Below are positions 30,611-36,361 of a stretch of DNA of 41,130 nt, one piece after another. Position 1 is the stretch's first letter. Every line of letters starts with the position of its first letter. Position numbers and translations under genes: made by a program. The DNA comes from Bacteroidia bacterium (GTDB lineage Bacteria; Bacteroidota; Ignavibacteria; UBA10030), in assembly GCA_022180565.1 (NCBI GenBank), contig BQML01000033.1:1-41130 (forward strand). The letters are read 5' to 3'. A model generated the notes under the pieces. The model was not told the DNA's origin and did not search any database. It worked only from the letters and a program-made list of their open reading frames with translations.

Positions 30611-33600
30611 TCTCTCGGCACAAAGCCTCAGCTAGATTCACTGGTTTCAATCCACGCGCCCGCATGGGGCGCGACCAGATAGGGAACGGGCTGACGTACG
30701 AGCAGAGGAAGTTTCAATCCACGCGCCCGCATGGGGCGCGACACCGTCGTCAATTAAATTCGCTTTCGCCATGATGGTTTCAATCCACGCGCCCGCATGG
30801 GGCGCGACGTTTGATATGATCCCGTCGAGCGTCAATGTGTTGTTTCAATCCACGCGCCCGCATGGGGCGCGACATGAACGCCGCCATGATCAGCGCCAGA
30901 TTTCTCAGTTTCAATCCACGCGCCCGCATGGGGCGCGACACCAAAGCCCCACAAGTCCGAACGCTGCACTGCCGTTTCAATCCACGCGCCCGCATGGGGC
31001 GCGACAAAACGTCCGGCGGAGATCGTGAAGCGTCGTGTCGTTTCAATCCACGCGCCCGCATGGGGCGCGACCCGGCTTCAGTCGATGACTCCGGGCAACG
31101 GGAACGTTTCAATCCACGCGCCCGCATGGGGCGCGACGAATGGCCGCCACCAAGAAACTCACCGGTGCCAGGTTTCAATCCACGCGCCCGCATGGGGCGC
31201 GACGATCTTGTAGACGACATATATGCCTATGATCCGAGTTTCAATCCACGCGCCCGCATGGGGCGCGACAGCCCGACACCGTCCGGAAGATATGCAACGA
31301 CACGTTTCAATCCACGCGCCCGCATGGGGCGCGACCAGTTTCCGACGACGTGCGGCGAATGCGGTCGGGGTTTCAATCCACGCGCCCGCATGGGGCGCGA
31401 CGTCGGGCTCTATGTGTGCGAGCTATGCGAAGAGGTTTCAATCCACGCGCCCGCATGGGGCGCGACCTCTCACAAACAAAAGGACTCTCGACGATGGACG
31501 AGTTTCAATCCACGCGCCCGCATGGGGCGCGACGAGAGCTTCTCGTTCTCGACGATCTTGCGATAGGCGTTTCAATCCACGCGCCCGCATGGGGCGCGAC
31601 ATGCTGAAGCAACGTCTACGGAGGTTGTGTCTAGCGTTTCAATCCACGCGCCCGCATGGGGCGCGACAGGATCCCTTTCTTCATACCACCACCTCCGGCA
31701 CGTTTCAATCCACGCGCCCGCATGGGGCGCGACCACCTACGGTTTTCCTCTCAATCGCAAGTCTTGGGTTTCAATCCACGCGCCCGCATGGGGCGCGACC
31801 TCCAGCTTTACCCCACTCCTGTATCGTTTTCCGGTTTCAATCCACGCGCCCGCATGGGGCGCGACCGCAATGACGAACCGCCGTTTCTGTTTAATCGAAG
31901 TTTCAATCCACGCGCCCGCATGGGGCGCGACAAGAAGCGGCAGTTCTTTTTGCCGGGACGTTACTCGTTTCAATCCACGCGCCCGCATGGGGCGCGACCT
32001 CACGATATCCGCGTTACTCAAACCCGGAACGTGTTTCAATCCACGCGCCCGCATGGGGCGCGACTTGCTATCCGCCGCAGACCGACCGAGCAAAAACGGT
32101 TTCAATCCACGCGCCCGCATGGGGCGCGACCGACTTTGATCCAGAACGTCTCGCCCTGATTATCGTTTCAATCCACGCGCCCGCATGGGGCGCGACAACG
32201 TTTCGCGCGATAAGGCGGATGCCGAAAACAGTTTCAATCCACGCGCCCGCATGGGGCGCGACGGTCGGAAGGTCGGGAGAAATTCCTTACACGGGAAGTT
32301 TCAATCCACGCGCCCGCATGGGGCGCGACGGCAAGCCGGGGAGTTTAATTCGCATCCCGTTCAGTTTCAATCCACGCGCCCGCATGGGGCGCGACGGTTA
32401 CTATCGAGGGGGCTAATGTCCACCTACCCGTTTCAATCCACGCGCCCGCATGGGGCGCGACGAGAGCGAATGTTGTAAAGTCCCGCGGTACCTTGGTTTC
32501 AATCCACGCGCCCGCATGGGGCGCGACTAACAAAATCAATGCCAAACAAAAGTAAGGTCAAGTTTCAATCCACGCGCCCGCATGGGGCGCGACCTTGCTC
32601 TACGGCGGCTCGATCTCCTTCAAGAGGTTTCAATCCACGCGCCCGCATGGGGCGCGACAGGTTGCCGTGATGACCTGAATATTCCTTACCTGGTTTCAAT
32701 CCACGCGCCCGCATGGGGCGCGACCTCGGTCCCCTTCCTCACTGCAATGCTGATGGATTGTTTCAATCCACGCGCCCGCATGGGGCGCGACGTGTGAACG
32801 AAATTGAGATAAGACGGCCCAACACGTTTCAATCCACGCGCCCGCATGGGGCGCGACCGGGACACAGCCGACCGTCGCCGGGCTCTTCACGTTTCAATCC
32901 ACGCGCCCGCATGGGGCGCGACACGATCTTGCGATAGGCGAGAAGTTGTGAGTCCGTGTTTCAATCCACGCGCCCGCATGGGGCGCGACTCTCTTGTTTC
33001 CACCTTCTCGTTGTCCGCCCCTGGTTTCAATCCACGCGCCCGCATGGGGCGCGACCAGCGCTTGGAACCGGCGAGAGCGCCGGGAGTTTGTTTCAATCCA
33101 CGCGCCCGCATGGGGCGCGACAGTTGCGAAGCCGTTCGTGTTGCGCTTCACGTCGTTTCAATCCACGCGCCCGCATGGGGCGCGACCAGGAACACGGGCA
33201 ACTGGAACACGGGCTACAGGTTTCAATCCACGCGCCCGCATGGGGCGCGACGTTCCCGCTTCATGGCGCCCACCACCGGGTTGTTGTTTCAATCCACGCG
33301 CCCGCATGGGGCGCGACACTTTCACACCCCGGCCGGCGTAATTGGACAACGTGTTTCAATCCACGCGCCCGCATGGGGCGCGACTGCTTTTCTCGTGGAT
33401 GTCGAGCAAGAGATTCGCGTTTCAATCCACGCGCCCGCATGGGGCGCGACAGATTATCGAAGCTCGTAAGTAGGCTTTTCTTTTGGTTTCAATCCACGCG
33501 CCCGCATGGGGCGCGACCAATTCTCATGTTCGCCTTCAATACCTGCGCTGAGTTTCAATCCACGCGCCCGCATGGGGCGCGACATTGCCCGTCTAATGCG

Positions 33601-36361
33601 CTCTAATAGCGATTTTGTTTCAATCCACGCGCCCGCATGGGGCGCGACCCGTAGTTTGATTGCAGGATTGCAATGGCTTTCGTGTTTCAATCCACGCGCC
33701 CGCATGGGGCGCGACTTCGATCCCTGCTCCCTCAACTTGACCCCGGACAAGTTTCAATCCACGCGCCCGCATGGGGCGCGACGAAAGAGTCGAGTATAGC
33801 TCGTGGTCTGCAAACGTGTTTCAATCCACGCGCCCGCATGGGGCGCGACTCTCCGTCTCCAGAGAAAACAATACTTGTCCGGTGTTTCAATCCACGCGCC
33901 CGCATGGGGCGCGACAAAGAGCGATTGGACTTACTCGCAGAGAAGCAGGGTTTCAATCCACGCGCCCGCATGGGGCGCGACATTTCAGGATCAAGGTTCA
34001 GGAGTTGGGGACGAAGGTTTCAATCCACGCGCCCGCATGGGGCGCGACTGCTTCTCGTTATCTGGGGGTGGGGGTATTTCCTTGTTTCAATCCACGCGCC
34101 CGCATGGGGCGCGACTGCACTCAAAGGTGTTTCACAAGGCATTGCTGTTGTTTCAATCCACGCGCCCGCATGGGGCGCGACCAATGGCTTGTGTTCCTCG
34201 TGTACAAGTTCGACTGTTTCAATCCACGCGCCCGCATGGGGCGCGACCCCACGCCTGTTGTAGCCCATCATCCAAATACGTGTTTCAATCCACGCGCCCG
34301 CATGGGGCGCGACTCGTTACCGACAAACGCTGTAGATGTCTTGTTCCGTTTCAATCCACGCGCCCGCATGGGGCGCGACCAAAGCACTCCAAAGCGCGCG
34401 ACTTCTTGACGTTGTTTCAATCCACGCGCCCGCATGGGGCGCGACCATCAAGTTACAACAAGCCCCGTTGCATAAAGTCGTTTCAATCCACGCGCCCGCA
34501 TGGGGCGCGACTGTAGGGCGGGTACTTGATCTCGACGTGTACCGGTTTCAATCCACGCGCCCGCATGGGGCGCGACCACTTTTCCTCGTGGCAAAGCGGA
34601 GCCGACCGGTGTTTCAATCCACGCGCCCGCATGGGGCGCGACTCAATAGCCGATCCACCGCGCGTTTGAGAGAGTTGTTTCAATCCACGCGCCCGCATGG
34701 GGCGCGACCCCAATGCCTACAGACTTGGGTTATCATTCCTTGTTTCAATCCACGCGCCCGCATGGGGCGCGACAGGCGGTGAGGCCCGATACGGTCATCG
34801 AGGAGGAGTTTCAATCCACGCGCCCGCATGGGGCGCGACGGTAATGTGAAGCGTGTCTCCGACGGAAAGTTCTGTTTCAATCCACGCGCCCGCATGGGGC
34901 GCGACTTCGTCCCGTCCAACGTCATATACTCCCCACCGGAGGTTTCAATCCACGCGCCCGCATGGGGCGCGACTATCACGACGCTGTTTTCAGCCGAGGA
35001 CTACACGTTTCAATCCACGCGCCCGCATGGGGCGCGACGTTCAATTTTTTTTTATCGAACTGCGTAAATTCCAGTTTCAATCCACGCGCCCGCATGGGGC
35101 GCGACCGGTATCCTGCGCTTCTTGAAGGATTCCAAGCGCGTTTCAATCCACGCGCCCGCATGGGGCGCGACCTGTCTTATGGAGAGAAGATACTAGAGTC
35201 TCATCGTTTCAATCCACGCGCCCGCATGGGGCGCGACATAACACCTCGTTCCTCTCATCGTCAATCTGCCTGTTTCAATCCACGCGCCCGCATGGGGCGC
35301 GACAGTTTGTTGCCCGGAGTCATTACGAGCCATTCGGGTTTCAATCCACGCGCCCGCATGGGGCGCGACCGCCGAGGCAAAAAAGGGAAAGGCTTACGCC
35401 GAGTTTCAATCCACGCGCCCGCATGGGGCGCGACGGAAACAGGAACCGAGGAGGACATCTAATGGGAGCGTTTCAATCCACGCGCCCGCATGGGGCGCGA
35501 CATTAGTACAAATACTTCTCGACGTTTTTGTATATGTTTCAATCCACGCGCCCGCATGGGGCGCGACCTTAAGAACTTCTTTAAGGTCATTGACAAGGAC
35601 GGGTTTCAATCCACGCGCCCGCATGGGGCGCGACGGCGCAATTTGGGCTTATTGGGGAGGTGCAAAATGTTTCAATCCACGCGCCCGCATGGGGCGCGAC
35701 GCGCCAGAACAGATGAAAAGGTGGATGCTGTTTTGTTTCAATCCACGCGCCCGCATGGGGCGCGACCGTTTCCTTGTTGCTTTTCCAGTTGAGTCAATGT
35801 CGTTTCAATCCACGCGCCCGCATGGGGCGCGACAGACTTTCAGATACAAACCGCCCTTCTCCTCCCTGTTTCAATCCACGCGCCCGCATGGGGCGCGACG
35901 CCAACGACATCTGTAATTGGCGAAGGTAAGATTGTTTCAATCCACGCGCCCGCATGGGGCGCGACTTCGTCTCAAAGGCAACCCATCCATCCTCTACCCG
36001 TTTCAATCCACGCGCCCGCATGGGGCGCGACCAGCGGCCAGGCCAATGCCGGCAGGCAGGAAAATGTTTCAATCCACGCGCCCGCATGGGGCGCGACGGT
36101 TCTCAGGGTGACGCCGAAGCGGGTCACCATTGTTTCAATCCACGCGCCCGCATGGGGCGCGACGTGGCAGCGCCGGCGTAGCCGTCCTGCATGAGGCGTT
36201 TCAATCCACGCGCCCGCATGGGGCGCGACCATTTGATATGATCCCGTTGAGCGTCAAGGTGTCGTTTCAATCCACGCGCCCGCATGGGGCGCGACTTCAT
36301 GGCTTACGGCTGAAGTAACGAATCCAGATGTTTCAATCCACGCGCCCGCATGGGGCGCGAC

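Follow-up and report, generated by a model that had tools for sequence, protein, structure and literature searches.

CRISPR array and adjoining cas genes

In the window, i.e., the whole 41,130-nt stretch of DNA analysed, a CRISPR array is followed on its right by cas2, cas1c, cas4, cas3 and the end of cas7c, all of them on the minus strand:

27338..36361, minus strand, CRISPR array (repeat scan), leader end on the right, at 36361
36362..36540, minus strand, presumed leader, between cas2 and the first repeat, placed from position and orientation
36541..36825, minus strand, cas2 (TIGR01573, E 1.5e-14)
36830..37858, minus strand, cas1 of type I-C (TIGR03640, 478.9 bits versus a cut-off of 385)
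37869..38525, minus strand, cas4 (TIGR00372, 140 bits versus a cut-off of 65)
38656..40890, minus strand, cas3 with HD and helicase domains (best PADLOC match Cas3c)
40890..41130, minus strand, cas7c, C-terminal part only, truncated where the contig ends (82 columns aligned to the Cas7c of the related locus L043, 70% identical)

The repeat scan delimited 137 repeats of 32 nt each and 136 spacers at 27338-36361, and only one of the 137 repeats, namely the copy at 30579-30610, carries a single substitution. Read on the minus strand, the repeat is GTCGCGCCCCATGCGGGCGCGTGGATTGAAAC, a 32-nt type I-C-like sequence whose 3' end reads GTGGATTGAAAC, which is of the I-C type; it combines the length of 32 nt with the end ATTGAAAC by which I-C repeats are recognised, and differs from the Legionella I-C repeat by one base. 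Because of the orientation of the repeats and of the cas genes to the right, the leader was placed at the right end of the array, from which the spacers were numbered, each being read in the crRNA sense (minus strand).

The type I-C set consists of Cas1c, Cas4, Cas2, Cas3, Cas5c, Cas8c and Cas7c, customarily encoded in the order cas3-cas5-cas8c-cas7-cas4-cas1-cas2, although this order does not define the subtype. Like such systems, the array is adjoined by a Cas1 of the I-C subfamily scoring above its cut-off and has a repeat of the I-C type, Cas4, Cas2, a Cas3c-like helicase and the end of Cas7c; as judged from their sequences, the adaptation genes beside the array are of type I-C. Unlike in the customary order, cas3 lies between cas7 and cas4, both here and in the related locus L043, whose complete operon (L043:4775-12340) reads cas5c-cas8c-cas7c-cas3-cas4-cas1, followed by an array. 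Cas8c, Cas5c and Cas7c are all present in L043, whereas the end of Cas7c is all that the contig holds of the effector genes, and the rest of the organism's own assembly yielded no Cas8c; since the contig ends within cas7c, Cas8c is likely missing through an assembly gap. The Cas8c of L043 is strongly matched by one PADLOC profile only (PDLC01562), a separate one, and by no NCBIfam model. A GSU0051-type match of Cas3 had raised type I-G, but with 88 bits against a cut-off of 400 it is far too low, and no match to the GSU0053-family Cas7 of type I-G was found in the organism's own genome; type I-G was rejected. The relatives found through Cas3 come mostly from metagenome genomes, the nearest being labelled Bacteroidetes, Ignavibacteriae and Melioribacteraceae; they span several phyla, and one lies in a Thermoplasmatota bin.

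Related spacers within the array

Two spacers, one recent and one old, resemble each other closely:

36230..36263, minus strand, spacer 2, newer copy of the pair, 34 nt, crRNA sense GACACCTTGACGCTCAACGGGATCATATCAAATG
30809..30841, minus strand, spacer 84, older copy of the pair, 33 nt, crRNA sense AACACATTGACGCTCGACGGGATCATATCAAAC

They are identical at 29 of 33 positions with an offset of zero at the PAM-proximal end, the mismatches falling at crRNA positions 1, 6, 16 and 33, and the difference in length (33 versus 34 nt) falls at the PAM-distal end. The initial annotation had located both spacers correctly, with the same phase and with the newer copy as the second spacer from the leader, in agreement with the repeat scan and the polarity of the array; it had set them 80 positions apart, for an actual separation of 82.

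With 9,180 spacer pairs compared, a resemblance arising by chance had to be considered in the first instance. The local score of the pair is 26, while the maximum reached in 150 second-order Markov versions of the whole array is 15, so that chance is excluded and its probability practically nil. Alternatively, spacer 2 could be an internal copy of spacer 84, or the reverse, produced by recombination between repeats and later drifted. Exact duplication of spacers by recombination within arrays is indeed known (reviewed in PMC8047081) and exact duplications exist in such arrays, e.g., spacers 106 and 108 here or a repeated block in L072; like those, spacers 2 and 84 are two related spacers within one array, but they differ at 4 of 33 positions, are far from each other in the array and stand among different neighbours, spacers 1 and 3 being unrelated to spacers 83 and 85. 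Drift at the rate separating the two spacers predicts some 103 substitutions in the older repeats, where one in 1,696 nt is seen. Such near-perfect conservation of the repeats, next to four mismatches between the spacers, refutes duplication with subsequent drift for this pair, and an internal copy is very improbable indeed. Spacers 106 and 108 themselves (29224-29257 and 29357-29390) have the same sequence, with a single unlike spacer between them; a simple duplication may be the origin, but a second capture would leave the same sequences.

Two further pairs of related spacers were found in the array:

32923..32957, minus strand, spacer 52, sharing 17 nt exactly with spacer 73 on the same strand, with a shift of 18
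31534..31568, minus strand, spacer 73, partner of spacer 52
35304..35337, minus strand, spacer 16, sharing 15 nt with spacer 80 on the opposite strand
31072..31105, minus strand, spacer 80, partner of spacer 16

The overlap score of spacers 52 and 73 was matched by none of the 150 control arrays, and that of spacers 16 and 80 was reached in one of them. The older members of the pairs 2/84 and 16/80, namely spacers 84 and 80, stand four positions apart and the newer members both lie within the first 16 spacers, a clustering which is consistent with the return of one invader lineage.

Regarding the coding context, the minus-strand peptide TLTL(N/D)GIIS proposed in the initial annotation lies in a frame that is open, but three reading frames are open in both spacers, with two amino-acid differences in each, so that the coding frame is not established and the peptide is a guess; in the proposed frame, two of the changes are synonymous and two exchange N and D, rather than one of each as had been stated. 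The pair shows no clear third-codon-position bias, and over seven pairs the codon-phase bias (p = 0.04) is too weak for a frame to be assigned. From the comparison of the spacers, what is established in this respect is the homology of the two source sites.

The search of viral and metagenome sequences suggested at the outset, for related viruses with a common PAM, yielded no protospacer in IMG/VR, GenBank phages or the other collections. As for the pair 2/84, this covers IMG/VR searched with a degenerate DNA pattern and with the other two open frames, IMG/VR and GTDB genomes searched with the back-translated peptide of the originally proposed frame, and 395 genomes of the phylum. None was found either in the organism's own genome for spacers 1-52, 73, 80 and 84, in 60 relatives for 38 spacers, in GenBank phages for all spacers or in plasmids for the related spacer pairs, and a permissive phage search gave only matches of 19-25 nt with E values of 1 or worse. 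The terms "phage" and "same PAM", as well as the peptide, are therefore unproven.

A looser version of the peptide pattern retrieved six IMG/VR stretches, five of them from one gene family encoding TLTFNGIIS. They were rejected as chance matches, since the pattern itself forces most of the 25-26 matches over 34 positions; at the PAM position these stretches read ATT, and the other spacers match these contigs hardly better than shuffled ones do. The family is a viral small-protein family with the ending TGIVTLTFNGIISDGFCTxPITVTFSG conserved in five IMG/VR contigs (L030:8882-9367, L029, L031, L032 and L033), and its match to the loose pattern is most likely due to chance. Three IMG/VR matches to the peptide of the 52/73 overlap were likewise judged to be chance (24 matches over 53).

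Diverged pairs and PAM in related arrays

Loci of the I-C type were gathered by means of Cas3 and, within the phylum, of Cas1c, which gave 42 arrays and 1,376 extracted spacers. Besides the present array, L070, L075 (two pairs), L085 and L104 contain diverged spacers that align in exact register, and one diverged pair with a 1-nt shift in L059 raises the number of other arrays with such pairs from four to five; a pair in L076, where one copy is merely shorter, was left uncounted. Diverged in-register spacer pairs are an ordinary and regular feature of type I-C arrays. Six of the 12 same-strand related pairs have offset 0 among 39 possible offsets (p ~2e-7 under uniform offsets). PAM-anchored sampling of homologous sites would produce just such an excess, so that no special steering is needed; that old mismatched spacers would steer acquisition back to their own site beyond PAM-anchored resampling, and so rewrite the memory as the invader drifts, is quite unlikely.

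Several of these arrays present features of their own. L104 (array start near 13574) has 73 spacers with four related pairs, i.e., one in register, one shifted and two on opposite strands, and L075 likewise holds four, both arrays being good places in which to seek repeated encounters. In L072 (array 16047-18465), spacers 10-17 form a block of eight that recurs immediately afterwards as spacers 18-25, the last spacer of the first block differing from its partner in the final bases only. In L044, the leader-proximal spacer (L044:5820-5853) includes 20 nt that match the array's own repeat type in reverse complement (GTTTCAATCCACGCGCCCGC), and this spacer seems to have been captured from a CRISPR array.

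In shifted overlaps between spacers of the same strand, the sequence upstream of one spacer is legible inside the other. Once the four arrays of the 42 with repeats not of the I-C type were omitted, the upstream bases in five shifted overlaps read TTC, TTT, TTC, CTC and TTT: CTC, upstream of spacer 73 and read from spacer 52, is the one internal estimate of the present array, while the four estimates from related arrays are TTC, TTT, TTC and TTT, one TTC case (L104 spacers 33 and 71) weighing less as it lies in low-complexity sequence. Indirectly, these shifted overlaps point to a TTC-like PAM, close to the known I-C PAM (5'-TTC, GAA on the other strand), reported in Legionella as GAA downstream in 20 of 22 acquisitions (PMC5071653), the same PAM being used for Cas4-Cas1-Cas2 of B. 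halodurans (PMC6519985). The latter study suggests that Cas4-Cas1-Cas2 processes the PAM-proximal end only, which fits both the exact register of spacers 2 and 84 at that end and their 33 versus 34 nt at the other. Overlapping spacers can by themselves hint at the PAM without any virus genome, and this reading may help for other hosts with unsampled viruses.

Probable re-acquisition and comparison with known systems

The homology of spacers 2 and 84, their register and their order in the array were observed directly, as was their independence from duplication within the array. Very probably, they result from two separate acquisitions, long apart, at homologous sites in related invaders and at the same PAM position. 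A first capture would have given spacer 84 and a second one, some 80 retained acquisitions later, spacer 2, the time order following from the leader polarity; the sources would be related invaders, most likely virus variants, about 12% different at the site, and the PAM presumably a shared TTC-like one. If Cas4-Cas1-Cas2 trims precisely on the PAM side and loosely on the other, exact register at one end and a 33/34-nt difference at the opposite end would be expected.

Re-acquisition is the best supported reading because of the register at the PAM end, the leader-proximal position of the newer copy and the exclusion of chance and of duplication with drift; the recurrence of diverged in-register pairs in related arrays, the six of 12 same-strand pairs at offset 0, the upstream bases close to the I-C PAM, the I-C adaptation genes adjoining the array and the old and new pair described in a Legionella type I-C array (PMC5071653) also count in its favour. 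Against it count the lack of a protospacer for the pair, the absence of a clear third-codon bias and the reading of CTC rather than TTC. As such, the re-acquisition from a diverged target put forward in the initial annotation is upheld as to register, order and the exclusion of chance and drift, but has no matching protospacer.

Both spacers could also derive from one invader carrying two diverged copies of a repeated segment, e.g., in a repetitive fibre gene, and nothing within them speaks against this, no target genome having been found. This origin is fairly unlikely: the captures are 82 positions apart, so the lineage would still have been met twice, and the recurrence in other arrays is more simply accounted for by sampling of the same site in homologous genomes.

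How the second capture came about is a distinct matter. Spacer 84, mismatched at seed position 1, may have failed to clear the new variant, its crRNA binding imperfectly and recruiting the adaptation machinery for the later acquisition. A seed mismatch with the rest of the spacer mostly intact is the typical situation for priming by old spacers, the general idea of which has been reviewed (PMC8047081), and type I-C priming has been demonstrated in Legionella. Over seven comparable pairs, though, seed mismatches are not enriched (4 seen versus 4.2 expected), so that priming is neither supported nor excluded; the PAM alone accounts for the excess at offset 0, and no target was found on which a strand or distance bias might show. 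Priming is kept here as a tentative suggestion, with the balance somewhat against it.

With re-acquisition as the preferred reading, the pair testifies to repeated encounters, the older and the more recent spacer having been taken from one place in two slightly different versions of an invader; in an array of 136 spacers, it cleanly documents that the host came across a drifted relative of an invader met before. The closest precedent is the I-C array of L. pneumophila Toronto-2005, in which pairs of old and new spacers on overlapping sites of LME-1 were described and, for two of them, failed clearance and priming were proposed (Rao et al., 2016; PMC5071653). Like there, two spacers of different age in an I-C array correspond to overlapping sites on the same strand, the newer being leader-proximal and the older mismatched in the seed, here at crRNA position 1, a situation read as re-acquisition after escape. 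The Legionella target element has been identified, with a perfect match to the newer spacer, whereas here no target was found; unlike the Legionella pairs, spacers 2 and 84, at a distance of 82 positions, coincide exactly at their PAM-proximal ends. The pair is a further instance of an already described phenomenon.
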